64,000 nucleotides of DNA from Leptasterias polaris (Eukaryota; Echinodermata; Asteroidea; Forcipulatida; Asteriidae), in the NCBI GenBank assembly GCA_037783415.1, contig JAZGTN010000038.1, forward strand, positions 1,116,001 to 1,180,000, given 5' to 3'. The position numbers and the translations under genes were made by a program. Under the pieces are notes generated by a model. That model had not been told where the DNA came from, did no database searches, and saw only the letters and a program-made list of their open reading frames with translations. Below, piece after piece: positions 5,021-61,700 of this stretch (its first letter is position 1; every line of letters starts with the position of its first letter).

Positions 5021-5085
5021 CAGGATGAAATAGATAAATGGTAATGAAAGGTTGTATGAAAACATGTTTTGTCTTTTCTATTCAG

Positions 5086-21311: not shown

Positions 21312-21530
21312 GGCCAAGTTCGCGCAAAGACTATCATTGACCATAGTTGGACTACGCTAGTCGACTATTTGGAACCAGCCTACGGGGCATGGTAGCATCG
21401 CTGGTTATAGTCGCCGGTAGCGTTGACATGACATGACTAGAGTCGTTCGCACTACAACTTCTGTGCGCATGCTCTACGTACGTCGCTAAACAACCACTAG
21501 TTAACCAATGGAAATTGCGCGAACTTGGCC
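21312..21530. mobile_element. MITE abutting the gene A stop codon
   Basis: Perfect 16-bp inverted ends, GGCCAAGTTCGCGCAA (21312-21327) and its complement (21515-21530), enclose about 190 bp of GC-richer sequence with further internal symmetry. TA is found just outside the right end and one base away from the left end. The gene A stop codon (minus strand TAG, 21530-21532) is made of the flanking TA plus the first base of the element. Confidence 0.75.
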
Positions 21531-21781: not shown

Positions 21782-24700
21782 CTGTATTGAACAAAGGTTG
21801 AAATATTGTGTATTTAAAATACAATGCATAAGCAAGTATTCGTAGACGGTACACAATTCCATAGTTCTCAGACTCTTATTCAGGTTGGCTTGGTGATATG
21901 ATCCCGTCTTTCACCTCCGTGGACCCCCGTTCGGATCTCGCTTTGGACCAGAACATTGCATGGTAATTGTGTGCCGAGTTCCTACCTGATTACGTGGTTT
22001 TTCCCTAACCATGTTTAGGTTTTCACTCATATATCTAAAATCATATATTTCTTTAACACACTTTCTTCTGACATTTTCTCCACAGGTGACGAGGACATTT
22101 TGGGGGACAACTTTGTCATTTATAACAGAAAATTACTATCAATATACTATGCATAATATTAATAATCAGGTGACAACTTACCAATTCGATTTTCACTTTC
22201 AGTTTTAAGTTTTCCTGAACCATTGCTCTATTACCGTCTGGCGTACTAGCACTAATCGTCGAAACTCTGCCTAAATCTTGCAAATTGGGGTCTTCCTGGG
22301 ATGTTCTGTGCACGGCCAGCACCTGTCAACACACAAAACAAAAACTGTCCAAATTGTGCCCACAAAATATGTAAGATGTCAAATAATAAGCCACAAGGGA
22401 AACTGACTGTGTAAATCTTAAGTGATTAGAGGTTGAACAAAGAAAAACTTACTAGAGCGGGATTTGAACCAACGACCTCCTGAAACGTGCCGGCGCTGTA
22501 CAAACTGAGCTATATCTAGTACTATGTTGTCGGTCTCCCTATGTGTTTTTAAATATAATTATTTGTTCCTGTAAAATTGTCTTTGTTCAACTCCAAATGA
22601 AAATAAATAAGACAAAATATTGCTATTTGAGTACCGTGTTTCATACAGTCAACGTGTACAGTGGTGAATTTCCATTTGTGTAGAATCATTGAGAGTTTTT
22701 TGTTAAGGGTTGTTGTTTGAAATCAAAAAATCATCAAAACGTTGTGTAATATGCGAGAAATGTTCGAGAAAGAAATGTCAAATGTCACAGTATACGCTGT
22801 TTAGACATTACGAGACATTGTTGAATTACAAGCTGACTGGCTCTCTGTTTATGCAAATGGAAGGCGTGAGTCATGTGTCATGTGTAATCGACCGACATAC
22901 AAAAACTGTTACCTTGGGTAAGAAGACGATGAGTATTGTGAGTGTAGTACAGAACATGGAGATACAGGAGTTGAATATGAAGAGTGTCTCAGGGTCTTGA
23001 CCCAAGACTAGGTTGACAGCAAGACCCACGATGCATAATATGACCACGTTGTAGACGCTTATACCAATCAGCTTGCTGTCATTTAAAAGTGGGATTGTAA
23101 CCTGATAGACACAAACAAAATCTAAATAATTATTTTGGTGCGTCAGATTGTTAAACATTGTTGTTATAGGGCCTTGTCACACGAGGCAACTATTACAGGC
23201 ACATTCGAGGCAACCAAACACAGTGCAATCTACAGGGCCACTTTAGTAGCACTTGAGTAATTTTTTAATAGTTTCTTACGATATCAAGTTTGGTTGTTGT
23301 TTTTTTCTTTCGTTTTTTTTATTTGACAGAACCATTAGCCTAAGCTATGGTGGTATTTGTTATTGAACGTTAGAGATAAAAATTTACAAAATTAGCCGTT
23401 GTAAACCAAATGAGATATGAGACAGTTGTATAAGCATTTAACTCCTGTAAAATGACAAAGCAAAGACTAATGAACAAACCTGCCGTGTTTCCCAAGCTAA
23501 GAATGCACCGAATGCCAGTAAGAGTCCCTTGAACGAAGTGAGGGCAGCAAACCAAGAGAAGTAGTAATCGCTGGTGCAAAACTCGATATACGGTACAAGT
23601 ATCTGACTGCTGTTCTTGGGGTTCGTCTAGAAAACAAAAAAGATAACAATAATATCGAAAAGATCAAATGAAAACTGATTTAAGATCCTGCTAAAAGGAT
23701 AGTGTTATCAATTGCGGAAATTGTGTCAAGTAAATTTGGCAAATTAATTCTTGTCATTACCATTTCTGGAAGAAATGTCCGTTCCTGTCGCCAGGGAAAG
23801 AGGATTTGCCACGGTACCAAAATGGCGACATCAACCAGCAACAAAAACGCTACAATGGCATAGAGTTGTCGATCCTGTACGACCTGATAAAAGTTGTAAA
23901 ACAAAAACGGTTACCAAAACAATAAAGATCGCTACAAAATTAATTTATACAACAGAGAAAGTTCTCAAGCATATCGATGACTTTATTTTGTGGTTTTCCA
24001 TTGTTAATAATAGCGCCGTCCGCATTGACATGAGTTCTAGGTTTGTCAAACAACCCGGATCCTTGCTGTTAATTTCTTCGGTTCGAACAAACCCCAACAT
24101 ATTTTATCATTTTTCATTTGTTTATTCACTATTGTGGTGATGGGCCGCTTATGTGTCAGCTTCGATGGATGATATCAATGTCATGTTCGGATGACCTCTA
24201 ACACGAGGGTCAACACAAACTAATAACAGTTTCTTTCGTGGCTTTTGAAAAACTTTAGACAAGTGGAATCGGCCATAGAGGCTGGAGCATACGGAACACT
24301 GGTGTATAGGTTTTACGGAACGCTGGTGTATAGGTTTTACGGAACGCTGGTGTGCCTACGGAACGCTTAATCCGACCAGCACTCTTTCGGCAAATGGTAG
24401 TGTGTGACGATTGTCCTGAAGATTTCTGATACTGAACCGCCGTGTTAAGCCCAGTTATGCAATTGGTTCACAATGCTCACGAATGGATGAATGTAAACTT
24501 TCACTTTATTACTAATTTATTATCACTTCAATATTTTATTTATATTACATTTTGTTTCAATATTGACGCTGTAAATCGATAACTTACTACTCGTTTTGGC
24601 TTTTTCATGGCCACAACTTTATGCACTCGCCACGTCTTACTGAACATTGCTCCAAACGCTAAGACGAAACCGATGGAAAGCAACCACACTCTCACCTGTT

Positions 24701-27700
24701 GGAATATTAATTAGAAATAGAATATTGATGTGTAATTTTGTTTCATTTTGTATGGACACTTCAAGTTAAGCTTTCTTTCAGAAGAAGTTGATGGCTCTCA
24801 TTTCATTCTCTGAACATTTGCCTCCGTCTTGCAAAAGAGAACACAACTAAATGTACCCGTTTTGTAAACAATACCTTTTACCTCAACCTCGTACAGCAAA
24901 AATTGGGGTGTTAAAATTGAAACCATGGATGTTGTCACACATATAGAAACCGAAGAGTGAATCATCATTTACGCCATGGAAGTTAAAATAACACTAATCT
25001 CTGCCAAATTGACGTTACTTTGACACCAACCCTTTGGTATAATTTTTGATTCTCTCTTGGGTATCTGTATGTGACAACGTCCTTGATGTCAGTTTTATTA
25101 CCCCAGTTTTTGCATTGCAGATTTTATTGAAAGATGGGTTACTTTTAGCCATTTATTTGATCTGGTCCCCTGTGACCCCTTTTTCAAGTCAATTCCGACT
25201 TCGGGGGTTTTTTTTATAAGAGGGAATAAGTGTTTATTTTTACATTTTTGATATTAATACCTACATTGCAAAATAAAATGAAGTATTCAACATCCACTAG
25301 ATTCATGTCGATGCCGTAGACAACAACAGAAGCGTAGACCAAGGAGGTCCCTATCAAGATGATGTTGTTCAAGTTGGGGCTCGACATTCGTACAATCCTG
25401 AAACAACAATTATGAAACTCTGAGGAGTCATGAGCTAAAAGTACACCGTGTTTTAATTCCGAATAGAGGATCCAACTGGATTCAGTATAATAGACCTTTC
25501 CATTGTTGACAAACAAAGTGCGCCGGTTGGTATGGACGGCCGAATGTTAGCAAAACATTAAATCGTTCAATCGTGTTAACAAATGTTGTGACCAAATTCA
25601 ACATTTTCTGTAAAGATTCATGAACTGAAATATGTTCCATGATTGGTTGATTTTTTTCCCAACAAATTCAACACTATTTTTGAATATTTTGTGTAACATT
25701 GCTACAAACTATCTGTTTTTGATTTGCAGTGATGGCTTTCCATAGTTTTCCAACCTCGGTTGGCAAAAACTCGGGCTGCGACGTTGCAAAAAAAGGTATA
25801 ATGTCGTAGATGCGGTATACCATATTAAAGGTTCTGGGATACATTTCTCGGGCTACACCTTGTGGACTGCACGGTAGTTGTGTATGCATTAATTTATGCA
25901 TCAATCGGAACTACCCTTTTGTGAATAAGCTTGGTAACTGATCCATAAGAAAAAAAATACTTATCTGGAAAGTTTAACAATTGAGAAAGAAGAAAACATT
26001 GATTGATCAGTCTTTTGTTCAAACAATTGTAACTTGTTGGCACCCTACTTTACGGGTTGTCCAAAGATGTCATTTATGGGACTGTATGCAATCGTTATTT
26101 CGATCGGAAACTTTAGGTTATAAGCAAAAGCCTATGGAGATTCTAATTTTCGATTTTGTTCTCTCTAAGTTTTCTTGAAAATAATTTGTCAGCCTCGAAT
26201 ACTAGATAAACTTGCGAGTGACTAGAAATAAAATTGGGAAAATTTGTCATTATTCGGCATGTTACATGTTTCGGCAACAGTGCCATTAGTTTCCATACCT
26301 GAGTTTGCGATATCGCACGTTGAAGGCAATAAAGAAAAGTGACAGCAAAAGTCCAACCCCGGCCACTGAGCTAAAAACAACGAAGACAATCCGGTGTATA
26401 CCCATGTACACCTCAATTCTTGTCTGAATGAAGACGAGTGTCCTATCAAGGGGTACTTCGCCATCTGTAAAATAAATTGGGCCAACATTTTTTTTAATTT
26501 CTCTGAAAAATCCCGGGTCAGAATTGACCCGGATTCCGGAATTCGATTTAGGTTGACCCGGAAAGTGGTTTACGAATGGGATTTAAGCTCGGATTCTGCG
26601 TTAGCTTGACCAAATTCTGGGTCATTTTGACACGGATTCAGGTCAGACTGACCCAAAAAGGGTCAACTAACCCGGAAGTTGTTACGGTGTTGGCGGGATA
26701 GATAATGATCATTTGAATTCAATATTTTTTTTAGATTGGATTTACGGTAAATGTATTTGAAACTGAAAGATGGAATTACTGGAAGTTTGTTTTTCAATAC
26801 ACCATAAGTGTGTCGTTTAATTTAAAATTGTCAGAGATTTGATTTATGGTAAATGTAATTAAAACTAAAAGATGGAATTACTAGAAGTTTATTCTTCAAG
26901 AAACCATAAGTGTATCGTTTAAGTTAAAATTGTTGATACTGACAGAGTGACCTACCATGCCATAACAAGTCCATATCCATCGTCAATACGTCAGTTGCCG
27001 TGTCAAAAAGACCAACTTGAACTTCTGCATAATCTGGTTGAAGTAACAAAATCAATTATTGTTATAGTTGTTTTTTAAACACAGGTACAGCAATCTCGTA
27101 CATGCAAACTTAACTCCGAGGATTTTCACAATATTAAAGAACTTTACAATATTTAAAACTATGTTTTCTGTTCCAGACCGTTAAGTAGCGTCATCGATTT
27201 TTGAATGCGAGTTTAACTCCCTTCCGAGTAGCCTGTGGATGTTCTACTCGCGGAAAGAAAAAAAAACCTAAAAGATCTTTGATGCATTTATTCCATCAAT
27301 TAATCAACATAGCCGATAACGTTTTACGGTCAAACATTTAGATCGAAACCAAAATCTCCCAATTTCTACTCACAAGCGTCAACTTTGCACACAAACGGTA
27401 GAGGCATACTGCAATTAACGGGTTCGATCATCCAGCCATTCTCATTCAAATTCAACACTGAACATGCGTCGCCTTTCAAAAGGACGTTGGTCTCTTTACC
27501 TATTAGCCTGAAATCAAAGTATGGTCTGTTAAGAATGTTGTTGCTCTGTATTATTAATCATTCATTTAATTGACTTGAATTAAGTAATGGTGTCTTGCAT
27601 AATTGTATTATTATAAATGAATAACTCACATTTTACACTATACAGAGACAATGCAGAGCTAAACTCCGGTGTCAGAATTGACCCGGAATACGGGTCAACT

Positions 27701-30700
27701 TGGGCATGACCCATTTCTGGGTCAGTATGACCCGGATTCTGTGTCTCATTAGATTGTATGTTTGCATCTATCGGGTGTGTTTGTCTAAATACCATAATAA
27801 TTCAAACTAAACACTAAAGAAAAAAGCTAACAGCCCCCCCCCCCCCCCATGTTTACGACGTGGGTAAATTTTTGATGTTATGACCCTTCTAACTGTGCCT
27901 GCAATTCCAAAATCCAGTCTCCTTGGCTCCTCTAGGAAAAACCTTAGAATGTCACGAGATATGACTTGTTTTAAACATACCATTCAGTTATATTATATTT
28001 CAAGTCTCTCAATGTGTCTACGAGAACATCTTTTTGCGACGGACTGCTGACCACCGCCAACTGACTCTTGTGTTCTTCTCTGCAGTATGTGGCCGCTTCC
28101 TCGCCGGTTTGTGGGAGTTTCACGAACTGATAGCACGAACCGTTGCTCAGCACCCACGTAAACGGACAAGCAACTACCAATCAAAAGAAGAGACAATAAT
28201 GTAGTTTATTTCCAATTATGACAACTTACAGAATGGGTTTTTATTTTTGCAAGTTGTAAAACTCCCCACAAGAGTTCCTTGCAATATCCCAAAGGTTTTA
28301 TTTTATTTTGCATCGGGTGTTTTTTTCTTAAAACTTTACTAAACCAAATGTTACTCTTCATCAAACAAACTTAACACTCTATGGTAGTTTACTTTATTGA
28401 GCTCATTAAACTGTGCCTACAATTATTCTGTATCAATTATTAAAAAAATATAGTGATGAAATGAATTAATTGACTTATAATTATGTTTATCTTGTTGAAC
28501 GAGCTGGACGGGAGTCTCCACTTGGAACTCCTTTCAAAGTCGCCGCATATTCAAAAATATCGAAATCAGACCCCCCCCCCCCCCCCCCCCCCCACCCCCG
28601 TTTTCAGGCATAGAGTAGCCCTCTTTATTGATGCAGTCATAATTACAGGCCCCCTCTTGTCACAGTCTGAGTTTGTAGCTGCCGTTTTTATGCTTAAAAT
28701 ATGTGTACTGATTGGATGTCAAACTGGCATATGTTCGATGGATAAAGTGGCAAACTTGTTTTCTTTGCGAGTGAGTCTGCGTGATGGCGCCCTCTTTTGA
28801 ATCAACCTCCTTCGGCCCATGTTAATTTCTCATATGGGGGGACAGTCTCTCCGAGGGACAGATTGACCTAGGACACCGGAAGTTACGAGTGTTGGTCCCT
28901 GTCTAAATGTTGGTGCCGTACGCGCGGCAAACAGTTTATCAGTTCTTACCTCTCATTTGTTCGATCTTAGTGACTGCAATGCGATCAGCCCCTTTGAAAC
29001 TTACTGGGCCCTGTGGAAGAAAAGGTTGGCACTTTTGAAATCGGAAACTTTCGTTTGTATAATAAAAGTTACGTTTAAACACTTTTATAGTTGCACCTGT
29101 GATGAATGACTAATTGATGGTTGATTTTCAGATTTGGTATGATTTTCAAGTCTTTGGTATGATCCAGCCATTTTGAGTTTATATCCCATACTGTGTCCAA
29201 AGCGAGGCTAGAAGAGCAAAGGGCGAAAAGGGGAACAATTATTGTGGATAAGACAAACTCTTTCATGTTGTGTTGCTAAATGTTAAATTTCTTAGGCGCA
29301 GATCAAGGAGATGGGTCCATTGGTTCTAAGCCCCCCTTCCCAACATCACTTCCCTATACACCTTTTTCTCTTTGTCGTGTATGTTTAGTATAAGCAATCC
29401 ACCTTTGGATGCAATCTTTTGTTTTGTTGGTTGCTGTTACTGCTCTTGCTGCTCAGCTGTTGTTGTTTTTGAGTGTATTTTAGTTGGTTAGTTTTTTACC
29501 CCCAGTGAAGTAGTATTTCTGATGATTTTATTGTTCCATCTCAAACACAATTCATTGTTAAAATCTCACCGATGTCCCATAAAAGTCTGTCTCGGCGATT
29601 ACATCGAAAAAGAGTTGGCTCATTTCTTCGTCCTCGTAGGTGAAGTCCTCCAGTCTACGGAAGCTTCCGTCGCTAAAACGCTTCGTCTTCAGTACCTACA
29701 ACAATAATTGTAGAATTAACCCTGATGAAGGCATGTGCCATTAATAATGAAACATTTTGTTCATTTCGCCAGTTTCTTAAAAGTAGAAATACCCGGGGGA
29801 GCTTAAGTCATTGGTGTTCTAGACTGGACAATTCCACATAACCAGAGCTGCGTATTGAGAGAGTCCCGACATGGAGAGACCGGTTTTCTTTGGTCAAGTA
29901 GTTACTGGACGCAATGTTGGGGTCAAAACGCAGCACAACCCAATGTGCAGTCTAGTCAGGCACCCTGTGAGCGCAAATGCATTTGTTTTCACCGAAAATG
30001 GCTTCTTGTTGCAAGTTGTTGCAACTCTCTCAATACATAGCTCTGCACACATCTAAGAGGGGGAACGTTACAGAGTTGTGTATGTCAATTTTTCGGGCGG
30101 AACAATGTTTTGCAGTCATATTTTTTAGTGCACTATTTCTTCAAATACAGACCTGCCCCGGTCGAACCCTCTGATAAGTGGAGCGGCTGGAGCCCCATCA
30201 TGCTCTTGTCACTAGTTAAAACATAATTACTTAAAGGCACTGGACACTATTGGTAATTACTCAAAATAATTGTTAGCATAAAAAGTTACTTGGTAACGAG
30301 CAATGGAGAGCTGTTGATAGTATAAAACATTGTGAGAAACGACTCCCTCTGAAGTAACGTAGTTTTTGAGAAAAGGGTAATTTCTCACTCAAATAATAAA
30401 AGATTTCAGCGAAGCCTTTTATTATTGCCATCTGAAAGCACACAAATTTGTGCAACAAGGGCGTTTTTTCTTTCATTATTTTCTTGCAACTCGATGACCA
30501 ATTCAGCCCAAACTTTCACAGGTTTGTTATTTTATGCATATGTTGGGATACACTAAGTGAGAATACTGGTCTTTGACAATTACCAAAGGTGTCCAGTGCC
30601 TTTAAACAAAGACAAATAAGGCTCAAATCGTTTGATACAATAGCCGGGCATGTGAAGAAGGCACTTAGATGCACAAAATAATGGGAAATGCACAGCAACC

Positions 30701-43535: not shown

Positions 43536-43769
43536 CTATGGGGTGGTTGTAGCTTCCAAAGACAAGTCGACATCATTAGTGTGGACGTAGTTGTCAATGT
43601 CATTCTCGTCAGTGGATTTTGGAGACATGGCGTCGTTTGGTGAGCACCCACACATGATTCCACAGCACCACACACCGCAGTTATAACCGTTGAGCTTCAG
43701 TCGACCGTCCCTTGGTGTGGCTTGATTGGTTGATTTGTCGCTGATTGACTCCTTCAGCTGTTTCTGAAG
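43536..43769 (-). CDS. gene B exon equivalent to A20: Cys-rich C-terminus
   Basis: 77 codons plus TAG. LQKQLKES coiled coil, then YNCGVWCCGIMCGCSP (six Cys, aligned with gene A) and YVHTNDVDLSLEATTTP. Confidence 0.87.
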   Translation of the reverse strand, partial: LQKQLKESISDKSTNQATPRDGRLKLNGYNCGVWCCGIMCGCSPNDAMSPKSTDENDIDNYVHTNDVDLSLEATTTP

Positions 43770-46700
43770 CTATGGGTTAACGAGACAATACTTTTCAATA
43801 ACTGAAAATTATTACTAGGTCAACAGTGTTCTTTAACAACAAAAAACTCCTTTGGTCTCAACATGGAAACCATAAGGCACACCCAAGCCGAACAGGAGGG
43901 GTTTTGAGTCCTGGCAATGGAGAAGGAAAGCGCGCAAACAGTTAGACAATCAATCGTATAATTGAGTTGCCAAACCACCGGTTCTTATCAGAACCAGCAC
44001 TACTCAAAAGAGATTTCTGCACATAATGTCACTGCAAACCTCAAGTGGTGTATACTCCCACCATGCTAAGTTTCAAATCCTACTAACTTTTTTAGGTGCC
44101 AACCCAACACTCTTTGCTCATCGCGCCGTACAATAAACTTTCAAAATATTGGTTGGTTTTAGGTAAGGTTTTGAAGATGGCTACTGAGGGAGAGTGTTTG
44201 AGGGAGAGTGTTTTATATTCTCCAGAAAATGACTCCACATAGTATAGGTGCTGCGATAGACAAGGCAGGATCCCAAACAGTGCTTGCTCATTGGGTTTGG
44301 GAGGATCTCTGGCCGGAGCAACGAGTCCGCTCACCAGTTGTTTCTTATGAACGAGACGAACGTTGTGATTGGATATGACCCAATCTTCCTGATTTGCAGC
44401 ACCTTGCCTTGATGACTTTATTCACCCCAGAACTTAGAATGGTTTCATGAAAGTTATTCCTCCGGTTTTGTTTTTGATTTGTTTCCTTCTTCTTAATGTA
44501 TTTATTTTATTTGTTATTTGTTCTCACCTCAGCAATGCTTTGTTTCATGCGACGATATTCCCTGATCATTTCGTTGTTGCTCTCTGTTGATACCTGAGAG
44601 ACTGCTAGCTTGGACTCGGTGATTGAATCTTCACCTGGTTTCTTGCAAACAGCAAAGACCTGCGTTGGTATAAAAAGACAAAATCAGAAGACCGCCAACT
44701 ATCAACTACAGCTGTGGTCGAACCAATCGGACTTGTATGGATAGTTACTGTCAACCACCCTCAAACCATGTTATATTGATTGTAGTTACCTTCGGTAAGA
44801 AGACGATGAGTATTGTGAGTGTAGTACAGAACATGGAGATACAGGAGTTGAATATGAAGAGTGTCTCAGGGTCTTGACCCAAGACTAGGTTGACAGCAAG
44901 ACCCACGATGCATAATATGACCACGTTGTAGACGCTCATACCAATCAGTTTGCTGTCATTCAAAGCGGGTATGGTTACCTGATTTATAACAAAGATATAC
45001 ATTCTAAATCTCCAATAAATTGCACGTAAATCAATGGACGCTGCGCTCCCCTATAATATTGAAGCCCGGACGTAAATGTAGTCTCAACCTTGTGCCCAAT
45101 CGTAACTCAAACCTTATACCTAAATGTAGCTCCAGAATTGTTCCTAAGTGTAGAGTGGACTTCAATCTAGCCCAAACTTATAACTAGGCTAGCCAAACAA
45201 TTATACCTTAAAGTAGTTATAGCCTTGTTCCTTCATGTAGCCACAGCGTTGCACGTAAATGTATAAGCGATTTAACTGTAGCTCCAACCCTGAACATTCT
45301 TGAATTCGAACCCTTGTACCAAAGTGTAGCCCGACTTCATGCCTTAATGTAGTCCTATTGTAGCTCTCTTTATAATAGTAGACCCGGGATTAATCAACAA
45401 ACAATTGGGCTGGGGCTACATTTCGGTCTTGGGTTAAATGGGCCACATTTACAATGATTAAATGATTCAAAATATATACATATATATATCACTTAATAAA
45501 AGCTCTTCTTCGCCTCGCAACATGAGTCTAAAAAACAAACCTATATTGTTTTTAAGCAAGCTCAAAACAAAACTGCGTCTAGGCCTACTTGCAGTTTTAC
45601 TGCCTAGATGTCATAGATTATGATTTTGTGTGGCTATGCGACCATTCAATTCAATAAAACATTTATTTCCGTACTCACAATAAGAACAGACAGAATCATG
45701 TGGACACATTTACAGTAGTTCAATGGAAGCAATAGATCGATCCATTAAGCCCCGCCTCCTTACGAGTTGACCAATCACAGCCGCGAAACCCGATCACCAA
45801 ACTGCTCAAATGGTGATCAGATTTCGCGGTTGTGATTGGTCAATGAGAAATGGGCGTGGCTTAATGGATCGGTGTATTAGTAAACTTTACCAATGAAAAT
45901 TTTACTGCAAACATGTAACCATTTAGGCTGTGAGTAAGAGGCTGTTCAGATAAGCCGAGGCCTGTGGGGAACAGTCCTTACATTAAATGTAACTTGGAGT
46001 AAAAGGAACTCTTGCCAAGCTCAACTTTTAGTAAATGAGTACACAACCTCTTAGTTTATGTTGAGTGAGAGGGAGGAAGGAAGCGGGCGGGGAGAAGGGG
46101 AACCAAACCTGACGTGTCTCCCAAGCCAAAAAGGCGCCAAATATCAGCAAAAGTCCCTTGAATGAGTAGAGAGCGATGCTCCAGTATAAAAAGTGATCAC
46201 CAGTGCAGAACTTTACAAAGGGAACCAGTATCTCTGCTGCTTGTTCCTGTTGTTAAAAAAGTACATAATCTTAAATGGAGTGGGTTTTTTCCGTTTTCCT
46301 AGCTGTGATAATATTCTATTCATTCTATTCATGGTTTATTAAAAATCCGAATTTGTTGCCAGAGGCAAAATTGCAACGAATTGTACATACAAACATTATT
46401 AAAAATTATAAATATTATAAATACTATCTACAAACTGAATAGTTAGAATATACAACAATGTAGAATTTGCATTTCTCCTTCCTTTCCCTTTTTTCTCTTT
46501 TAAATGTGAAAAAGGAAAAAATGAACTAGTACATTACAATAAAAACCAAGAAACTACAAATCAATCTCATTGAGCAGCTTGATTATGGATTGCAGTATAA
46601 TAAAAATATTTACCAATAAAAACAAAAGATTACTTTATTCCGAATTCTCATTGAGCAATTGAATTAGGTAAGGGATTGCACTATGTTTGTGCCTGTTGGT

Positions 46701-49700
46701 CTTGCACACTATCTGAGTGAATCTATTCTTGTTACGAAGATCATATTTTACCTCTTCAAATCTCTGCTTAGGTAGCCAGTCTTTAAAGGACTTGGATTTA
46801 GACAAGTCAATAGCAAATTTAGTGCACATGGTTTTTCGACGTTCTTTTAGGGGAGTTAGTTTAGTGTCTTTAAGTGCGTTTTCGTACGTAGAGTATGAAG
46901 ACCCTAGAATAATTCTAAGCGCTCTTTTTTGAACTCTTTCCAAATTTTCAACCTGCTTGATAGTTAACCCAGCATTCCAGACAGGAACAGCGTACTCAAG
47001 AAGTGATCGTTCATAACATTTATAAATTGTAATCAGGTCTGCTGTAGGGAGATTAAACTTTTTCAACATCTTTATCATGTAATGTTTACAATTTGCTCTA
47101 CTTATAAGATGTGAGATGTGGGCGTTCCATTTTAAATCAGAACTAATCTGAACACCAAGGATTTTTACACGATCCACCGTTTCAAGTTGTTGTGAACATA
47201 TCTCAAGTGGGCTTTTCACCAATGGATTTTTCATAAAACAAATGTCCATAGCCACACATTTTTTCGGATTAAGTTTCATGTTATTTTGAACAGTCCATTC
47301 AGTAAATTCATCTAGTGTTCTTTGTATGTTCCTATTGTCTCCTCCAATGCAGTTTTCAATTAATGTGACATCATCTACGTATTTGAGACTAGTTACTTTT
47401 TCAGGGGGTTCTTGGATGGCATCATTGATTTGTGCTAGAAAGCAAAGTGGTCCAAGTTTGGTTCCCTGTGGGACACCACCTTGGAGAAATCTATACTCTG
47501 AAGTAACATTTTTATAGCGGACACATTGTAATCTCTGGCTCAAAAAGCTACACACCCATGGAATAACACATGGTCTAGCACCTAGTTGGAGTAACTTAGT
47601 AATCACAATGTTATGGTCAATTAGATCGAAAGCTTTACTAAAATCAGTCACAACAATAGTACTCTGGCTCTTCGGGGTATCAGCATGATTGTACAAATTT
47701 TCCATTAACTTAATTAAATAATGAGATGTAGAAACACCTTTACGATTTCCAAATTGATTAGGATCCAAGTTGGCCTCTATATCACTCAGAATCCATCTGG
47801 TCATGAAAGTTTCTGCTAATTTGGCAAAATGGTCTGTGAGTGATACAGGTCGTAGGCGGTTCCATACTGGTCGTTTCGACTTGGGTATCGGGACCACCAC
47901 AGCTTGCTTCCACTGACTAGGTACAATCCCTTGGTGGTAAGATGTGTTAAGGATGTCGGTAAGAGGTGTAGCAAGTTCAGGTGAAAATTCTCGAATAATA
48001 CGAGCAGGAAGCCCGTCAGGACCTCCAGCTTTACTACATCTTTTCAACTGATTGTAGACATCCCATTCATGAATGGCCGGACAGGGTGCTGGAGCAGGAA
48101 GGTATGCTGGGAGGGCTGTCATGTCTAGAGGTGGAATATCCTTTGCTATTGATGAAAAATGATTGTTAATACTGTCAGCAACGTCTTTGTCATTTTCTGG
48201 ATTAACCCCTGGCGGTGGAGTAATTGTGGGATTTGAGGTGGTACCAGTGGTCATAATGCGAATTTCTCTATACCAGGCTGCTGGGTTTGAGGCTTTTACT
48301 TTCTGCACCCTGTCATGGTAGTGGCTTTTCTTTGCCTTTGCAATTAGTCTGATGATTTTGTTTCTGAGCGCTTTCCAACGTTGATCACCTTTCCTAAACA
48401 ACACTTGGCGTTTTTTTATCAGAGCTTTTATCTCCGAGGTCATCCATGGCTTATCTTTTAAATGCAGCTTCACGAGGCGTTGAGGGAAGTAGTATTCAAC
48501 AGCCTTATTCAATGTGTGATACAGAATATCACACTTGGCTTGAACATGAGTAGCTTTCTGCATGTCCTCCCATTTGTGCTGAACAATCCATTGACCAAAC
48601 GAAATCAGTCCAGAGTCTTTGATTGGCCTAACGTGGCGGGATTGGACCACATTTGGTGTGTGTAGTAGTGCTGGCTTGGGGGTCCACAGCACAACATTGT
48701 GGTCACTTCGACCAAGTGGTGGTAGTATATTTGGGGTTTTGAAATTCCCAGATATATTTGTTATTATCTTATCCAAGATGGCACCTTGTCTAGTTGGTTG
48801 ATCTACTACTTGTTCAAATTCACCGACTGCGACTTGTGTGATGTCAAGGTGATTCATGTCCCCAGCTATGACAATTCCTGCATCTGGATATTCAGTGGTA
48901 ATTAAATCAATAGATTTCTGCAAATGGTCAATAAGAGAGTCTGCATGAGGATCCCCGGGTGGTGAGTACACCGCTGCATAGTAAAGTTTAGAGATTTTCC
49001 GTGGAAGATAGTTCGGTCGTGTATGTACCCAGATAATCTCCAAGTTTTCTGGGGTACTAATTTCCATAGGTTGTGGATGTAGTGAGTCCCTTATGTACAG
49101 TGCTACTCCTCCATGAGGACGGTCAAGGCGGGGCCTTGAAAACAGAGCGAATCCTTCAACTTGGACATGTTCTTCTGGGGTATTAGTTTTAAACCAGGTT
49201 TCCGAGATACAGGCAACATCTATTTGCTCACTAAGTACTGTAGATCTGAATTCATCCATTTTATTATTAAGTGAGCATGGGTTACAAACGAGTAGCTTAG
49301 GTAGTGCCCTTTTTTGACAGGTACTTGCATTTGGTTGATCACCCCCACTACTGTTTCCATGACTGTTACTGATAACGTTAATTACTTTTAAGCATCTGTT
49401 ACGCACACTACACATGGCATTACCATTGGTACCAGGAACAAACATTCGGTGAGAAATTGTGACATTGATTTTGCGCTGTTTATGTCTTCCAGCACGACAT
49501 CCTCGAGAAGTTCTAGATGCACATATGCCTAGTTCGTTCAGTCTTTGCCACAATGATGGTTCAAGAGGGTTTATAAAGGTAGTTGTACAAGGAATAGTAT
49601 CACATGTCATACGACGTCCAATATTCAGCAACAGCCTGGTCGAGTACCTGAGAGCCCCCATTTTAAAATGGTGCCACACAGTGTCAAGGCACCAGTCGAT

Positions 49701-52700
49701 TCCAAACGTGGCAAAGCAGGATTAGAAAAGCCAAATTTGCACGTTCAAGTTCTGTAGTTTCACTCAAATTATTAGGTCCAAACTTACAGTTGTGTGTCCT
49801 TGGTGTCCTAAGTGTTGCTCCGGTGAAGAATAACAAACATTTACAATCAGCAATAATCATAAAACACAAGGAAACATTCACAAACTCTGGACTGTAAATT
49901 ATTTAGTGTGCAGCCATCAAGTGCTTGTATCTAATTTATCCGCATGACATATATTTATATCATAATCATCCAAATTAAGTAAAACTTATTTATGCTAATT
50001 GGTTTATGAAAGTGTTTTGTATTTTATAATAGCCTTCGAGAAAGACTCTGCTAGGGTCGAAACGTCAGGCCACTAACAAATTGTTGTATTTTATAATATT
50101 TACAGTTAATTACGTTTACATGCACCTTTTCTGGGAGAAATAACATTTCTTCTCGCCACGAGAAAATGAGCTGCCACGACAATAAAATGGCGACATCAAT
50201 AAGAAACAAAATGGCTACCATAGCTAGGAGCTGTCGGTCCTGCACCACCTTCAAGGAAATAAAAATGATGTCAATTGTTATAGTTCAGTTATTCTGCTCT
50301 GTCGCAGGTCCGTTACACAATATTGGTAAACAAGAGTTGTCATTTTTAACAAGTAACTTCGCAACACCATGTTTTACTTCAAGTTTTGTAATCTCACAAA
50401 AAAAATACCAAGATTTTAGAAAAGGATCGAGGTTATAATTATACTCGATGTCTTATGCTGTATAGTGATAGACTTTTTGGGGCAGCAGGCTATTCTTTTT
50501 ACTCACTATTCTTTTAGGAGTCTTAAAAGCTACAACTTTATGCACTCGCCACGTCTTACTGAACATTGCTCCAAACGCTAGGACGAAACCGACGGAAAGC
50601 AACCACACTCTCACCTGTTGAATAAAGGGTGCAAAAGGAAACCGTCAGCCAATTATTCCCTCAGAACTTCTTTGAAACTCTAGTGTCAAACTGGAGGACT
50701 CAAATACCTATTTGGCTTTTGGAACGGCAATGTCTTGTGCCAGATATTGATAATAAGTTTTAAAGATAATGCTCGTGCTCTAAAACAGTGAAACAAAAAC
50801 AGCCAACAGAAAAGTAAATGCCTCGACATGATGTGTGTTTGAGAGAGCTTTTTGAAAGCTTGAATTGTTTGAATGGGACAGTCGGTGTTCAAGGTGTTCA
50901 ATGTGTTCAAAGTGGGAGCATGGTGGTTATAGACGATGTGACCTCTGACGTCATTTGAAAATCATAACATGATGCGCGCGCATGTCGCCGGGCAAAACCT
51001 TTGTGTACTTGACAGCCAGCTAGAAAGTACACGCAATATTACCATGACTACGCGTCTTTTTGCCCGGCGGAACATGACTTGGACAACAGACTTGTCAACA
51101 GAGGGCGGCTTGAATGTAAACAGAGGTCACATCGTCTATACTCCACTCTTTGAATCACAGGAATTCTTTAGAGGATAATAGTGTGTTAAAGTATTGGAAC
51201 ATTAGGGGGGGGGGGTTACCCTCTGCCCCCATATTAGACGTGGTATATATGTGTCAAGGAAGATGGTTCCATAGACGTTGTGCAAATTGCATGAATGAAC
51301 TGCACGAGAACGATTTAATTTCTTGAAGAAGATGTTAACTGCCAAATCAAACAGTACTGAATAATTTTATCAATGTTGTCAGAAGTGTTAGCAGGGGCTT
51401 TCCCATTTAGAGATTTGAAAACCAACAACATCACCGTTATAATTGATTATGTATGAAGTAGGAACCAATGCTGACCTGATGTATGAATGTTTCATACCTA
51501 GTTAAAGGAAGGGTCATAAATTGCTTTCTGTCACCGTAATGCTGATTTATTTGCAAAATTATAAAGAAAGAAACAATAAAAGCCAGATGTGTAAGTTTCA
51601 GCTGCGGGTGCTTGTTGAAAAAACAGCAAATTATTTCCACAAGAACGTCGAAAAGGGTTGACAGCGGGTTCCAACGGCATCTCTGGCTGCAGCATATGCG
51701 AACGGACACCAACCCTCAGAAATGTGAGAAACGATTCATGCGTGTATCGTTTATCAGATTCAATAGATCGATCCATTAAGCCCCGCCTCCTTACGAGTTG
51801 ACCAATCACAGCCGCGAAACCCGATCAAAATTAGTGCAAAGACCACCAAACGGCTCAAATGGTGATCAGATTTCGCGGTTGTGATTGGTCAATGAGAAAT
51901 GGGCGTGGCTTAATGGATCGGTGTATTGTGTTGGAGTGAAAAAGTATCCGGACCATTATTACTTCGAAAGAAATCTTTTCTCAAAATAGTACACACTATC
52001 AACAGTGATTCTTACCAAAGTACGTTTTATGGTCATTGTTGTTTTGAGCATTTACCAATCTCTGGGCCTAACTTTAAAGTGATAACGACGGCAGTATGTA
52101 TTGTGTAAGCTTTGGAAGCGTGGACTCTCATGAAAAACTTAAATGGGCCGGTACCCGTTTGGACCTTTGGTATTCATTAATAAACAAAATTAAAGTAATA
52201 ATTATACTAACATGGCATAAAAAGAGCAAATGTTTAGCATCCACCAGATTCCTGTCGATACCGTGAATGATAACAGAAGCGTAGACCAAGGAGGTTCCTA
52301 TCAAGATGATGTTATTCAAGTTAGGGCTCGACATCCGTACAATCCTGAAACAAATTACATCAATATCCATCATGGTTATTTAAAACTCGATTCAATTTGG
52401 ATGTACGTAAAAAAGAAAAAGAAAGAAAAAAGGGGTGCACAGAAAATCATTGTTTGTGCATGCTAAAAACTTTCGGGTCAGAATTGACACAAATTCCGGG
52501 TTTCTTTGAGCTTGACCCATTTCTGGGTCAGTATGACCCAGGATTGTGTCAGAATGACACAGAAATGGGTCAAACTGACGCATAATCCGAGTATATAAAG
52601 CAAGTCATCAGATGAGTTCATACGAGCAACATTGTGTTGGTCCCGCTCTATCAAAATAAGGAATGTCTCGGAAATCACGTTTACGTGTATTTCGCCATAC

Positions 52701-55700
52701 ACAAGTTGTTGACAATCGAAAATCAAGAAAAAACACTACAAAAAACGATTCTGCGATTTCAGTGGTATTAGGTTAAACAAAACTTGATCTTTCTTGTTGT
52801 GGTCTGACCTTTAATTAAAAAGATGAATAAATCCACAAAAAATACGTTTTCTTGAGCCTGTTTGTACGCATAGCTACAGTAGCTAGCTGTTGTTAGTAAT
52901 GATTATCTAAATAAACACGTCGTAAAAGATGGAAGTGGCCTTGTCTTGTAGTCTTTCTTCATTGCCCGATAACTTCGGACTGGAATAAGCTACGGAAATA
53001 ATAATGGTATTGCTGGAAAGCCAGTGAGTTACTTGTTAACATGGTATGCATATCTCAATTTTAAAAATGTCCGAGACATTCCTCAATTCGACAGAGCAAG
53101 TCACTTGTTATCTGCATCAAAGAAAGGTTTTAGTTTTGAAGTACAAGCAAGAAATAATCCGTAGGACCGGATCGCACTTAACGAGTACAAAAAGCCTAGC
53201 ATTTTGTCAAAGCTTCTCCCAGTGTCGAGTGAAAAACAATTATTTAAAGGGACTGTATACGTTTGGTAATCACTCTTAAAATTAATGGCAATAAAAACCA
53301 ATTGGTTAGAAGCCTATAGCAGCTTTTGATAGTACAACGCATGTTGAGAAACATTTCATTTTGAAGTTTTGTGGTTATGTAATTATATATTAGTTTTGAT
53401 GCCCCAAAATTTGAATCTGAGAAACGTTTCTGTCAGAAACGCTTCTCAGATTGTATATTCCAATTATGGATTATTCTTCCTACGTGGACATATTCGCTCC
53501 GGAATTTCGACGATATCTAAAAAACGCGACCACCTTTTGAAATGAAATTTTCACAGGTTAGTTTTATTGTATATATCTACATTTATATAGGATTGAAATA
53601 ATCGAACGGTTCCAAAAACCAAAGGTATACTTTGCCTTTAAAGACAAGCTTTTCAGACGTCTTGACAGTTATTAAGGGAGTTGGTTTTGGAAAAAGTAAT
53701 TATGCATATACGTCGTGCATGAAACTTACCTCAAGGAACGATACTTTAAATTAAAGACTAAAAAGGCAACAGACAGTAAAATTCCCATCCCTGCCAAGGC
53801 ACAGAAGCAGATAAACGTTTCTAAGTTGATTCCGACGTACACATCTACTCTGTTTTTAACGATAACAGGTGTCCAATCCAACGGCACTACGCCACCTGCG
53901 AACAGATCATTAGACAAAACTTTCTTTTTAAATGCTTACTTGGCGTGAAAAACACTGAGATGGGACGAGTAATTAGCCGTTGGTTTATTTCGAAGAAAGA
54001 GTGGTTAATTGGGCATTTTAATTACCGACTGTTGAGCAATGAGAGATGATTTTGAGCAGGCGCCAAGACCTACTTTATATAACCCATCGTTCTCAACAAT
54101 TTACAATGGGCTTTTGTTCCTGACGAATGACCAATTTTGCATCTGGGGAAATTATTTGGCAAACTATTTTCCCCTATAAAAACCCTGCATGTTATCAATG
54201 TTATTAAATGTAAAACAGTCTATATTTATAACAAAGGCAATTTGACTTACCTGGCCAGGAAAGGTCTGTGTCCATAACTAGTATGTCATTAGCCGTGTCA
54301 TAGTTACCAACAATAACTTCTAAATATTCTTGAGAAAAGACAAACGAAACAATCATTAAATAACATTCATGTTTGAAAGATTCACGGTTAATAGCAGGCA
54401 GGGGTGGCCCAGCGGCTCTCCGGCCCCCATCAGCCCTCTCCTCCGAATGCCTCCGACTTCGTACTTTTCTTATTTCTCGGAGTGTGCTCTCCGCACCCAG
54501 GCAGGGGTGGCCCAGCGGCTCTGGACCCCGGCACAGCCTCGCTGCTCTTGCACGCTCGGTCCTTGTTTTACCGGGGCCCTGTCTGCACTGCCGCCTCGTG
54601 GGTGTGGGAGCGCCTCCGGCCCCCATCAGGCCAGCTAAATATCTTATTCAATTAAAGATTAACAAAAGACAATCAGAAATGTTTATTCCTAAACTTGTTT
54701 AAAAGGCAAGATTGGTTTACAGTTTCTTTAACAAACTGCGTAACAGTTTCTTCCTGGCTACTTATTGTGTTCAACTATAATATCTAGCATCAAATCGTTC
54801 TTTTAAAAATTGGTGATTTCCTCAATCAAATTGGATAATATTTTGATTCAACGAAAACGATCAAGGAAAACAACAAACTGTACTAAAGATTTTAAAATGA
54901 CAAACTGCGCGCACAACGGAACAGTATATATGTACCCTAAAGTATATGAAACCAAAACTTTATCCCCAAAAAAGAATTAGGCCTACACCAAATCATGAAA
55001 CAGAGCACAAAAGGAACCCCCAAACACAGAATGTGGGTGAATTTTAAAAAGAATTGTGGAATTGAGTGTTCAGCAGCTTTCCAATATTATTTAACATTTG
55101 GGTAAAAGAGTTTTAAGTTAAATGTTAGATATTTGTTTATTAAACTTTTATTCATTTCAATTATAACTGCAATTTTATTAGTGTAAAAACAGTTTTGGGG
55201 ATTTCATTCTCGCTTAGAAAATCTTACCTGCTGCATCTTGGCAAATGAATGGAAGCGGTGTACTGCAGTTAGTCTCCACGAGGTCCCACTCGCCATCAAC
55301 CAATCTCAATGCAGAGCACAAGTTACTCAAGTTACTTCCCGTCATATGGACAAGCCTAAAGAAGTACAATGTCTGATTTCAAACTTTGAGTATTATGTGT
55401 TGAAATCTCGTCCCGCGTGATTCTAAAGAAATTATGTTTAAAATAGTGACTCACACACAAACAATTTGAATGAATGGTCGATTCACTGATATTGTAACAT
55501 GGAAACCATCGAGTATAAACCTCTTGCATAATTATGACGTCACTTGCCAAACAGCGCCCTCACTGATATGATTGACTGAGAGTTGTGCGCAGCTGCGTAC
55601 ACGTGTACACGTTTCTTTTTGACCTCAGTAATGCCGACCAACGCAATAGGTCAATCAAATAATGTTCTTCGAGTGCCTCAAAGCTCTACTTTGTGGAAGA

Positions 55701-58700
55701 TTTGTCTTTTGTTGATACAAGGCGAGTACCCTCGTGGTAATACATATATTGATATGTTAATACAGCGTAATTAATACCATGTCACTCAACTGATGCCTAA
55801 TTATTTATTTTCATTTTTTTTAGGAGAACATTTCTTTTTTTATAAGGAGTACAGTAAAATACTACAAAATAATGGGGAACTGTTACATAAAAATCTGTGT
55901 GTAAATTCTCCCTTACCACTTCGTTTGATTAGACTTGGATTCCCTCAGGGTTTCCGTGAGGAAATCACGATGGGATGGACTGCTGACTGCCGCCAGCTCG
56001 CTCGCGTCATTTTCACTACAGTGTATTGCCGCTTCGTCACCGGTAGTTGGGAGGTCAACAAACAGATAACACGCATCGTTGTACTGCACCCAGTGTGGCC
56101 AACAACCAACTTTTACGTTTTAGAAAAGAAAGAAAAACATATCCATTAGTTTTACCATTCTCACACTTTGGTCGTCACCCTCTAACGTTTTTACAAATGC
56201 TACGTTAAACACAGCGAGCTCAAGTTTGCAAACAAATATAAAAATGGCTCTTGAAATTATTAAGTGTTTTTTTGTGTTTTTTGTGTGTGTGTTTGTGGTT
56301 TTTTTTTTTTTTTTTGGTTTGTTTTCCTTGTTCAACTAAATAGCTATGCTCTGTGCGTTCCTCTATCAGAATCGTTTATGGTTTTTAATTTAACAATCGT
56401 TATTATCAAACTCGAGTGGGTCAACTGCGCGATACCGAGAGGTAGGCCGTACCTTGCACCTAAACAGAGGCCTAATTATAACCAAAATCTTGTAGACCGG
56501 GTATCATTATTTTAGGTACAGAGTTTATTTTTTGGGCACGGACTGCAGTTGGATCTCTGGCTACACAACTAGGACTTGGCTATATTTAGTTATCGGATAA
56601 CACTAAGGTCACGTGCTATGTTTAGGACCTTGGTTATATTTAGTTATCGGATAACACTAAGGTCATGTGCTATGTTTAGGACTTTGGTTACATTCAGTTA
56701 TCGGATAACACTAAAGGTCACGTGCTATGTTTAGGACCTTGGTTATATTCAGTTATCGGATAACACTAAGGCTACGTGCTATGTTTAGGACCTTGGTTGT
56801 TATCGATAACACTAAGGTCACGTGCTATGTTTAGGACCTTGGTTATATTTAGTTATCGGATAACACTAAGGTCACGTGCTATAATAGGACCTTGGGTATA
56901 TTTAGTTATCGGATAACACTAAAGGTCACGTGCTATGTTTAGGACCTTGATTATATTCAGTTATCGGATAACACTAAAGGTCACGTGCTATGTTTAGGAC
57001 CTTGGTTGTTATCAGTTATCGGATAACACTAAAGGTCACGTGCTATGTTTAGGACCTTGGTTATATTCAGTTATCGGATAACACTAAGGCTACGTGCTAT
57101 GTTTAGGACCTTGGTTGTTATCGATAACACTAAGGTCACGTGCTATGTTTAGGACCTTGGTTATATTTAGTTATCGGATAACACTAAGGTCACGTGCTAT
57201 AATAGGACCTTGGGTATATTTAGTTATCGGATAACACTAAAGGTCACGTGCTATGTTTAGGACCTTGATTATATTCAGTTATCGGATAACACTAAAGGTC
57301 ACGTGCTATGTTTAGGACCTTGATTATATTCAGTTATCGGATAACACTAAAGGTCACGTGCTATGTTTAGGACCTTGGTTATATTTAGTTATCGGATAAC
57401 ACTAAAGGTCACGTGCTATGTTTAGGACCTGGGTTACATTCAGTTAATGTGTAAGGTCTTGGGCTATATTTAGAGCCTTCGCTACATTTAGTTATCAGGT
57501 AACACTAAGGTATTGAGCTACAATTAGGGGCCGCACAGTCGACACAGTAAAAGTACAATACCTTTGTGTTATTTAAATCACTATAAAGCACCCACTTAAC
57601 TCACTCAGAAAGATCACTTCATAACAGCCAACACTCAGCAATCAAGAATAGTCAACAATGGAAATGACTTGATATTATTGGTTCACGTGCATCGCCGATG
57701 CAATGTCGCAATCATCAGTGAACAATATTCTTAAAGAAAGGCTGAATATGACAACATTGAATCGGTTCACCAGTTATAAAAAGTTCACTCACTTTGAGTT
57801 ATGAATTTGATGCATAAAATGAATATAGCATCACAGTGGATCATCTCTAAGGTGTGGATTTATAAAATGACTCCCATCATATCGTAGGTTTTCCACCAAT
57901 CTCAAAATCAGCTGCTCAACGGAAAACAACTTTCCTCTCTCGAGATGGATAAAATAAAATATGAGAAATACATTTTGCATATTCTGTAAACACTTTCTTA
58001 GTATTACAGGAAATTGCAAAAGAACACGTTGATAACATCCGGCTCGAATCCAATCGTGTATCCTTCAATCTCACCTGCTCCACTGGGAATGCTTCTGTGT
58101 TATTGCCTGTTTAGTAGCGTGAACGATGCACTCTGAATTATTTGTTTTATTATTTTGTTCTTCTTATTATAAATGAGGAAACCTGTATATAAAGTAAGGG
58201 TGCCTGATAATATGTGAACAAGAAACACAGTGGTTAACCTCTACTTTGTTTTTGGTTCTTTTACGTGCACTAACAGTTCATATCTCATTTTCTAACCACC
58301 ATCAGGCTCAGCCTGACCCAAAAATGAGTCAGGTTTCCTAGGATCTGGAATCCGGGTCATTTGTGACCCGGATGTTTCTGGAGTGTATCATGACAGACAG
58401 AAACGTATACAAAAGGGCTGTATGCCAAACCAAAATGACAGTTAAACAACAGAGTGTTGGCCTACTCTATAGACCTTATGCATAATGACGTCATTTGAGT
58501 AGGGCGCCCTCGCCTAGAGGTCAAAAGGAAGATGTTCATTGGTCAGTCCTGTGCGCCACGCGTACAAATCAGCACGTTTCCTTTGTTTCATCATCAGTTT
58601 ACCTCAAAGATGGCGGCTTGGTGACGTCAATGCATAAGGTCTATTGCTTGAATTTCTTAGCTAGGATTCTTCGTCAATTTGACCCATTTCTGGGCCATTC

Positions 58701-61700
58701 TGACACCACTTCCGGGTCACACTTAACCGTTCAGGTCAGGCCCCCTGGGACCCGGAACTGGGTCGATTCTGATCCGATATTGTTTAGGTTTTTATAGGTT
58801 TGCTTTCAAGTCCTTCATCCTGATCCATGCCAGTTTGCTTATCAGAGTAACAGGGGTGTGGGAGACGCAGTGACTCTTTACCTTCATAAACTGTACAGTC
58901 ATTTAGACGTTCCTAAGTCGTTTGTGAGATCAGTTTTTATTGACTTCAGCAGTGCCTTTAATACCATTGTCCCGCACATTTTAATCGATAAATTACTGAA
59001 ATTGAATGTTACTCCTCAACTCGCATTGATTATTCACAATTTTCTTATCGATAGACCGCAGAGAGTTAAGTGCAATAATTTGGTTTCAACCTTCAAGTCT
59101 CTTAGTCTAGGTGCACCTCAAGGGTGTGTTATGTCACCTGTTCTATTTTCATTGTACACTAGTGATTTTGATATTGGGAGCACCAAATGTAGTATTATCA
59201 AGTATGCTGATGACACGGTCATCAGCGGTTACATAACCAACGATGACTCTCTTGGGTACACCAATGCTGTTCAAAGGTTTGTTGAGTGGTGCGATCTCCA
59301 CCACCTAGTCCTCAATGTAAATAAAACCAAAGAGATGATTTATGATTTTCGCCGTTCAGCCCCAAATCAGGAACCCTTAGCTGTTCACAACCACGCTATA
59401 CAGCAGGTTACGGAGTATAAATACCTGGGTACGGTCATCGACAACAAACTAAAATGGAGCAGCAACACTCAAATGCTGTGTGGTAAAGCAAACCAACGGC
59501 TCTATTTCCTCAGAAAATTAAAAGAGTTTAAGGTAGATAACCGTATCTTGGTTCTTTTTTATCGATCTTTGATTCAAAGCATTCTTAGTTTTAGTTTCAT
59601 CAGTAATTTTGGGAATCTCTCAAAAGAAAATTTTCATAAACTGGAAAGACCTAGGAAGATCGCTCAGCGCATAATTCGTAAAGACCTCCCCTCAATAAGT
59701 TCTCTCTATGACAAACAGGTTCTGTTAAAAGTTCATAAGATAATGCATGACCCCTCACACCCTTTGCACAATTGTTTTTTATTCAATAGATCAGGTATCC
59801 GTCTCCATGTCCCACGTACCTCCCATTGTCGCTCCAGACAATCATTTGTTCCCAACGCCATTCATACTTTTAATGCTACTGCTCATAGGGGCATTAACTT
59901 ATAATGTGTTTTTGCCTCCCTTTGCCCACTGAGCTTGCTTAACCCCAGATCTTCTGTACCTTTTATCCTCCTGATGTGATGTATCCTTTATTTGTTTATG
60001 GTAGTTTTTTTATGATGCAGTTTTTGATGTTCACTGTATTTGCCCGTGCATGTTGTATTTTCGTATTTTAATGCTAGTTTTTTACTGTTCGTTGTACTCC
60101 ACGCCTACATATTATAATATTGTATATTGCATATTTAATGTTTAGTTTTTACCCATTTTCCAGTGGAAATCGAATTTCTATATTTTTTAATGTGGACAAT
60201 AAATGCTATCTATCTATCTATCTATCTATTAGCCGTGATATACCCAGTGCCGAAACTAGGATAAAATGTTAGGGGCACAAGGGAGTGCACAATTTTTTCT
60301 AGGGGCACTTCTGGTCAAGTGCCCGCTTGCTTTTTTTTTAAACAACCCCTTTTGGCAATTTTGTTATGCGTTTACTATTTTTTTAAGATAATCTGACGTG
60401 AGGATTAATAAAAGCATCCCGCGTTTAAATGGAAAAATAGTTTTTAAGACATTGAAAATACAAAATTAAACGGTATAATGGTAACATTTAACTCTGGTAA
60501 TTTGCAATCTCAATAGTCCGGATTTCAAATGACGAAGCACCCAGGGGGCACGGAAAAAATTGGGGGGGGGGGGCACGTTCCCCCACCCCCTTTTAGTTAC
60601 GCCACTCGTTATACCGGATTGTAATAGATGAAAGTCCTTTTTTTTATTTACCTCTTAGTTGTTCAATCTGCGTAACAGAAATACGGTCAGCTCCAAGAAA
60701 GCTTACTGGTCCCTAAAAGTAAGAAGAATTACAGGAAAGTTTAATGATTTTTCGCATTTTTTTTCAAAAAAAGGATGTCGTTTTGGGTTTTGTTTTTTAT
60801 GGTATAGCAAGTATAAAGCTAAATTTGTTTTCCGCCCATAGTTTTGGAATTGAAATCAAACCGATTGCCAATCCATTTAAAAAAGTGTATTAGTTCCTAC
60901 CGATGCACCGTAGAAGTTGGTTTTGTCAAGAGCATCAAAAAACAGTTGGCTCATTTCCTTGTCGTCGTAAGTGAAATCGTCCAATCTCCTTGTACTTCCA
61001 TCTTGAAACCTTGTCGTCTTAAGAATCTGGGGAGCAGAGAAGAAAGGAGTTTAACACAACTACCACAGCAATGTACTAAGATTCTTAAAGGAATTACACA
61101 AATGTGTGCCCTAAATGTATCCGAAGATCTAAATATAGCCCAGCACAAAATGAGCTCCTTCATTTTACCTAAATGTAGACCCAAAACTGCAGCCCTAGCA
61201 TTGTACTAAATGTATTGCCACATCATCGTACTGTTATTGTAAACTCAAACCAAGCACCTAAATGTAGCCTCAACATTCCACCCTCTGTGTTGTCCCAATT
61301 TATTAACCAGATAGCCCAAAAGTTGTAGCTAAACGCAGCTCCATTACTGTACCTAAGCATAGCCAGATTTTGGTCGGGGCTAAAATTAGGTCTCGGTCTA
61401 AATTCAGGATGTGTAACTATTCTTTAATTGATTTTTTCTACTACCGAATGACACCGCTGTTTTCAAAAAGAAAACAAAGTTGTGTGGTTTTCTTGACTTG
61501 GACAGTATGTCTGACTGAAATATTTCGCCTTGAAAAATTGGCCATGCGCAGAAATCAACCATTGAGTTTTCGATGTTTACCGACTACTTATATATTACTT
61601 TGCTTTTTAGTTCATTGAGTTGCCTAATTCAACAACAAAAAGATAGCCACTTTAGTTTGCTCGACTCAAGAATTTCTGAGTATCTCTTCAGGCGGGTTGA

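Follow-up and report, generated by a model that had tools for sequence, protein, structure and literature searches.

Four genes of the sea star Leptasterias polaris very probably encode γ-aminobutyric acid type B (GABA-B)-like receptors in which a C-type-lectin-like domain (CTLD) is inserted into the Venus flytrap (VFT) ligand-binding domain, as judged from their predicted proteins. Two of them (A and B) lie in tandem in the 64,000-nucleotide window analysed here (contig C38 of genome G000, 1116001-1180000), the third (C) continues the tandem in the surrounding genome sequence, and the fourth (D) is located on contig C45. The best explanation overall, to which we assign a probability of about 0.55, is an exon-shuffled CTLD, gained long ago by orphan receptors, through which proteins would modulate the VFT.

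All 19 introns in the splice model of gene A are of the GT-AG type, and its 995 residues are read in a single frame without stops. The whole protein matches the Pfam families ANF_receptor (the VFT; 2.4e-52) and 7tm_3 (the seven-transmembrane region, 7TM, of class C G protein-coupled receptors, GPCRs; 7.2e-53), and the seven Pfam families listed for it at E ≤1 include neither the Cys-rich linker NCD3G nor 7tm_2 or GAIN. Exons 10 and 11, whose coordinates in the initial annotation are reproduced by the 20-exon model, form a phase 1-1 cassette with an inner border in phase 2 (phases 1-2-1), and a fusion of exon 9 to exon 12 stays in frame. When the CTLD is removed, the VFT of gene A aligns with that of GABA-B1 ungapped at the junction (IEQMR-DYAEVQVG vs IEQLQ-GGSYKKIG), which indicates that the two flanking segments are adjacent in ordinary GABA-B receptors and supports the earlier placement of the CTLD between two contiguous VFT segments. 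The lectin-like identity given there agrees with a domain search of the spliced protein, where Lectin_C is matched at 17.5 bits in the whole protein, under its curated cut-off of 22.6 bits, and at 25.9 bits (1.7e-5) in the isolated domain. The six cysteines are also found (positions 444, 455, 472, 521, 538 and 546); each of the numbers first given for them exceeds these by 18, which reflects nothing more than a different gene model.

The same cassette occurs in the three other genes. Gene B, which a BLAST search with gene A located elsewhere in the window, is a tandem paralogue whose exons follow the same order and include a CTLD pair; its exons 2-4 lie beyond the window end and were read in the surrounding genome sequence, and exon 1 is probably also located there, across a 28-kb intron. 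The position of the cassette and the phases 1-2-1 are identical in A, B, C and D, as judged for C and D from their sequences, exon lengths and frames, and the isolated CTLDs of B, C and D match Lectin_C at 24.8, 35.5 and 26.7 bits, respectively. The six cysteines are invariant in the sequences of all four domains. A chance CTLD-like match was rejected, as the domain recurs in four genes at the same site and in the same phases. A nested lectin gene was likewise rejected, as four genes carry the cassette in phases 1-2-1, although no systematic search for a nested start exon was made; the view that exons 10 and 11 belong to the receptor is thus retained.

The receptors combine features of both GABA-B subunits. 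The VFT of gene A (without the CTLD) scores best with GABA-B1 (298.7 bits vs 225.6 for GABA-B2), while its 7TM and tail score higher with GABA-B2 (240.8 bits vs 187.3 for GABA-B1), all against chains that we take to be human, and its best 7TM matches in the PDB are GABA-B2. The Drosophila chains (9jr0, 9jqx) give the same split (VFT 280.5 vs 226.8; 7TM 207.0 vs 257.7), as does gene B against GABA-B1 and GABA-B2 (VFT part 128.6 vs 101.2; 7TM 165.0 vs 237.0 bits). This corrects the GABBR2-type comparison of the initial annotation, as the receptor is not purely of that type. Like metazoan GABA-B receptors (GABBR1 and GABBR2), the proteins consist of a VFT and 7tm_3 with no match to a Cys-rich linker, and both parts can be aligned; unlike them, they carry a CTLD within the VFT, unite a GABA-B1-like VFT and a GABA-B2-like 7TM in a single chain and have an altered GABA pocket. 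Of the seven GABA contacts of GABA-B1 listed in PMC12499500, gene A keeps four in the alignment (Ser136, Tyr256, Glu360 and Trp284, the Trp of the lower lobe, LB2), its second Ser being replaced by Gly159, its His by Tyr176 and its first Trp lying off the aligned site. Three of the seven are kept in gene B (Ser, Tyr and the LB2 Trp), where a Trp is found one residue off the first-Trp site, and at the sites seen gene C keeps three of six and gene D two of five. In B, C and D the Glu is replaced by Ala, and in C and D the His is replaced by Tyr. Because of these changes, plain GABA is unlikely to be the natural ligand of B-D, and for A it is uncertain. GABBR1a carries N-terminal sushi domains, which are also an extra extracellular module; they are N-terminal there, and the module is inside the VFT here.

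When the CTLD of A, or a profile made from A and B, is searched against the PDB, CTLDs such as those of NKG2D, snaclecs and lymphocyte antigen 75 are matched. The domains share the six-Cys pattern and a WIGL-like segment with long-form CTLDs (NKG2D, snaclecs, C-type lectins) and differ from them in the much shorter long loop of A and B and in having no Ca/sugar motifs that could be found. The best Lectin_C stretch covers profile positions 4-43 in A (residues 23-65) and 67-106 in B (residues 61-104), about 23 profile positions corresponding to the long loop are almost without counterpart in A and B, and the distance from the WIGL-like Trp to Cys4 is 15 residues in A and 13 in B; C and D are longer in this region. 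The motifs EPN, QPD and WND are absent from the CTLDs of A and B and, by eye, from those of C and D. Without these motifs, and with a short long loop in A and B, the domains are unlikely to bind sugar in the classical Ca-dependent way, and the glycan-facing sensor considered in the initial annotation is accordingly disfavoured. Such CTLDs commonly bind proteins. The genome contains at least 150 candidate CTLD genes (150 of the 150 scored candidates matched).

The insertion site is empty in the related loci compared. A query with exons 9-18 of gene A finds matches on at least 28 contigs (95 of 299 candidates scored), which suggests a large expansion of GABA-B-like receptors. Twelve loci in which exon 9 was found were compared, namely A-D and one each on contigs C102, C206, C3, C57, C39, C7, C4 and C65, drawn from at least 26 contigs with matches besides C38 and C45. 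Sense-strand matches to the exon-10 and exon-11 profiles occur in none of the eight other loci, exon 9 being found in all eight, and in all of A-D by construction, as the CTLD profiles were built from A-D themselves; C102, C206, C3 and C57 contributed to the exon 9 and 12 profiles, so that C39, C7, C4 and C65 are the independent loci. Antisense matches to the exon-10 profile in C7 (best 0.022) and once in the window (0.99) are taken as noise. A phase-1 donor directly follows exon 9 in seven of the eight loci (a GC donor in C3), and in C102 a single exon reads through without an intron. Exon 12 was identified in five of the eight (C102, C206 and C3, and by motif C7 and C4) and not in C39, C65 or C57, and its phase-1 acceptor was seen by eye in C206 and C3, the two loci inspected. 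Most simply, the phase-1 intron would be old and would have received a 1-1 CTLD cassette in the common ancestor of the four genes. An ancestral gain by exon shuffling is thus probable, with the two-exon cassette retained by four genes through gene duplication. In a tree of nine rows the label changes once, which is compatible with one origin of the CTLD genes and supports it weakly (64/73; 62% of bootstrap trees). In fish antifreeze-type CTLD genes, introns lie before the first Cys and after the WIGL (PMC514892), near positions equivalent to the start of exon 10 and the exon 10/11 border here.

The ratios of nonsynonymous to synonymous differences per site (pN/pS) in the CTLD are 0.54 (0.38-0.76) for A-B, 0.46 (0.35-0.64) for A-D and 0.41 (0.29-0.55) for B-D, and 0.65 for both A-C and D-C, where synonymous sites are saturated; the 95% bootstrap range of all five values is below 1. 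The A-B values are 0.30 in the VFT part, with synonymous sites saturated, and 0.31 in the 7TM, affected by likely gene conversion. As pN/pS in the CTLD is below 1 and above the values of the VFT and 7TM, the CTLDs of A, B and D are under purifying selection that is weaker than in the rest of the protein. Gene conversion of the 7TM exons 18, 15 and 14 of A and B is likely because their DNA is 90-96% identical and the other exons are far more diverged; the synonymous divergence (dS) of exon 18 is 0.18.

Skipping of exons 10 and 11 would leave an ordinary receptor in frame, so that splicing may switch the module. When the 33 acceptors of A and B are ranked from the weakest, those of exons 10 and 11 stand at 13 and 2 in A and at 6 and 1 in B (exact p 0.0038), and when C and D are added, the exon 10 and 11 acceptors still tend to be weaker than the others, though less clearly (8 vs 35 acceptors, one-sided p 0.013). 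This is at most a hint that inclusion of the exons is regulated.

In the proposed mechanism, the CTLD would fold as an independent domain projecting from the VFT, at a predicted site in LB2, the lobe that moves on activation. Activation of GABA-B receptors rearranges LB2 and brings the VFT C-termini closer (PMC12499500). The CTLD would bind a protein partner without calcium, which might be a ligand, in solution or on a cell surface, or an adjacent receptor subunit, and this binding would favour or block the movement of LB2, making the receptor responsive to, or gated by, a second cue. The arrangement suggests a receptor with a second sensor, although for the modulator role taken by itself the odds are somewhat below even. 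Polycystin-1, whose CTLD is needed for activation of a membrane complex (PMC7728438), is counted as an analogy for this role, though it is an 11-transmembrane channel-complex protein and the genes here encode class C GPCRs.

Several points weigh against the modulator explanation. The splice junctions and the fold of the CTLD are predicted from sequence, the ligand of the CTLD is postulated, and sugar may be bound through another site. That the cassette flanks are strands of LB2 is presumed from the type-I periplasmic-binding-protein fold. The monophyly of A-D is poorly supported by the tree (64/73; 62% of bootstrap trees). The faster evolution of the CTLD compared with the VFT (A-B 0.54 vs 0.30) fits relaxed constraint equally well. 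Weak acceptors could mean that exons 10 and 11 are frequently skipped, and the exon 10 acceptor of gene C is among the strong ones, which weakens the pattern.

A less likely role is that of a structural or dimerisation module: packed onto the stalk, a partner protomer or extracellular loops of the same receptor, the CTLD would set basal activity or the choice of partner and would need no external ligand. The missing EPN, QPD and WND motifs and shortened long loop of A and B would suit such a module, as would the tandem order of A, B and C, which could pair, and the dimeric action of GABA-B receptors, in which activation moves the VFT C-termini closer together (PMC12499500); the CTLD, however, diverges faster than the VFT, which is less expected of a fixed intramolecular interface. 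It is unlikely that the receptor is an innate-immune or chemosensory pattern-recognition GPCR whose CTLD recognises glycans or proteins from microbes or the environment, since the classical sugar motifs are missing (A and B by motif, C and D by eye) and no feature of the receptor indicates immunity as such. Such a role would nevertheless accord with the numerous CTLD genes of the genome, and placozoan CTLD-bearing adhesion GPCRs are interpreted in the same way (PMC6321704) and a Dictyostelium class C GPCR binds lipopolysaccharide via its VFT (PMC5969738). That exons 10 and 11 form a separate nested lectin gene, or relics skipped in the mature mRNA, is highly improbable, as the tendency of their acceptors to be weak and the abundance of CTLD genes are set against four genes that keep the cassette in place, frame and phases without stops and CTLD pN/pS values below 1 in A-B, A-D and B-D.

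GPCRs with CTLD ectodomains were known to the authors of a 2019 paper from placozoans only, in the secretin/adhesion family (PMC6321704), and one mixed-ectodomain GPCR with a CTLD is described from amphioxus (PMC6321704, PMC2246102). Trichoplax has 28 genes for such CTLD-bearing adhesion GPCRs and amphioxus one; these resemble the receptors here in having a CTLD in the ectodomain, but they belong to the secretin/adhesion family and carry it in the N-terminal ectodomain, and the present ones are of class C with the CTLD inside the ligand-binding fold. A 2025 survey depicts GABA-B receptors with the VFT alone in the part available (PMC12716839). No class C GPCR with a CTLD was recognised among the matches listed in the open-licence literature, although automated protein-database annotations may exist, and none is mentioned in the available portions of PMC5442662, PMC13228809 and PMC6307864. 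A scan of viral contigs gave eight pattern matches, none of them a relative.

Table. Coordinates of the receptor genes, the CTLD cassettes with their flanking exons, and the near-identical exons of A and B (window numbering unless a contig is named).
Feature	Coordinates	Strand	Basis
Gene A, GABA-B-like class C GPCR, 20 exons, 995 residues	21530..39546	-	splice model and Pfam
Gene A exon 9, final VFT segment ahead of the cassette (GPVSFKGADRIAVTKIEQMR), end phase 1	28950..29010	-	splice model; GABA-B1 alignment
Gene A exon 10, CTLD N-terminal half (Cys 1-3), phases 1 to 2	27981..28173	-	splice model, Pfam
Gene A exon 11, CTLD C-terminal half (Cys 4-6), phases 2 to 1	27374..27507	-	splice model, Pfam
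Gene A exon 12, VFT resumption (YAEVQVGLFDT), phase 1 in	26956..27033	-	splice model; GABA-B1 alignment
Gene B, tandem paralogue, exons 5-20 in window	43536..63410	-	BLAST, splice model
Gene B exon 9, end phase 1	60652..60712	-	splice model
Gene B exon 10, CTLD N-terminal half, phases 1 to 2	55917..56109	-	splice model, Pfam
Gene B exon 11, CTLD C-terminal half, phases 2 to 1	55228..55355	-	splice model, Pfam
Gene B exon 12, VFT resumption, phase 1 in	54251..54328	-	splice model
Gene C, third tandem gene, CTLD exons	window-frame 115854..115653 and 114859..114690		surrounding genome sequence
Gene D, exons 10 and 11	contig C45, 3161954-3162140 (exon 10) and 3165026-3165174 (exon 11)		genome search
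Near-identical exon 18 of A and B	22908-23106 vs 44785-44983		
Near-identical exon 15 of A and B	24610-24706 vs 50529-50624		
Near-identical exon 14 of A and B	25291-25406 vs 52238-52353		

The cytoplasmic tails of A (21530-21781) and B (43536-43769) have a common Cys-rich stretch (CNCGMWCCGLICG in A and CGVWCCGIMCG in B), and both contain HTNDVDLSLE. Gene B harbours a reverse-transcriptase open reading frame with an endonuclease domain in intron 16 (46635-49721, - strand), a second reverse-transcriptase open reading frame in intron 9 (58798-59904, + strand) and, in the same intron, a long tandem array seen by eye at about 56580-57500 with a unit of roughly 50-60 bases. The window also contains a 768-residue open frame (5038-7344, + strand) with no Pfam match at 0.01, a possible tiny Cys-rich two-exon gene seen by eye at about 15601-15711 and 18581-18604 (+ strand; MPDISLPKVKRPSKCKLCFLRCFACCCPCMKPRLPGQ, then KKKCCCC and a stop), and a dispersed repeat of about 375 bases with 90% identical copies at 30231-30605 and 41777-42151.

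The known variation among class C receptors lies chiefly in the pocket of the VFT, in the Cys-rich linker or in modules at the N-terminus; here the domain would be inserted in the VFT itself, at an intron position common to relatives that have no CTLD. A more speculative and doubtful extension is that A-D form a lineage-specific clade, with a GABA-B1-like VFT, a GABA-B2-like 7TM, an altered GABA pocket and a CTLD on the moving lobe, whose single-gene receptors act as coincidence detectors, sensing a small cleft ligand together with a protein bound to the CTLD, exon skipping turning the second input off. The in-frame forms of the receptor with and without the module constitute a testable pair. 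If the receptors work, they mark a position at which the GABA-B VFT may accommodate about 110 inserted residues, and the finding, if true, would illustrate how an allosteric receptor can gain a further input and still function.

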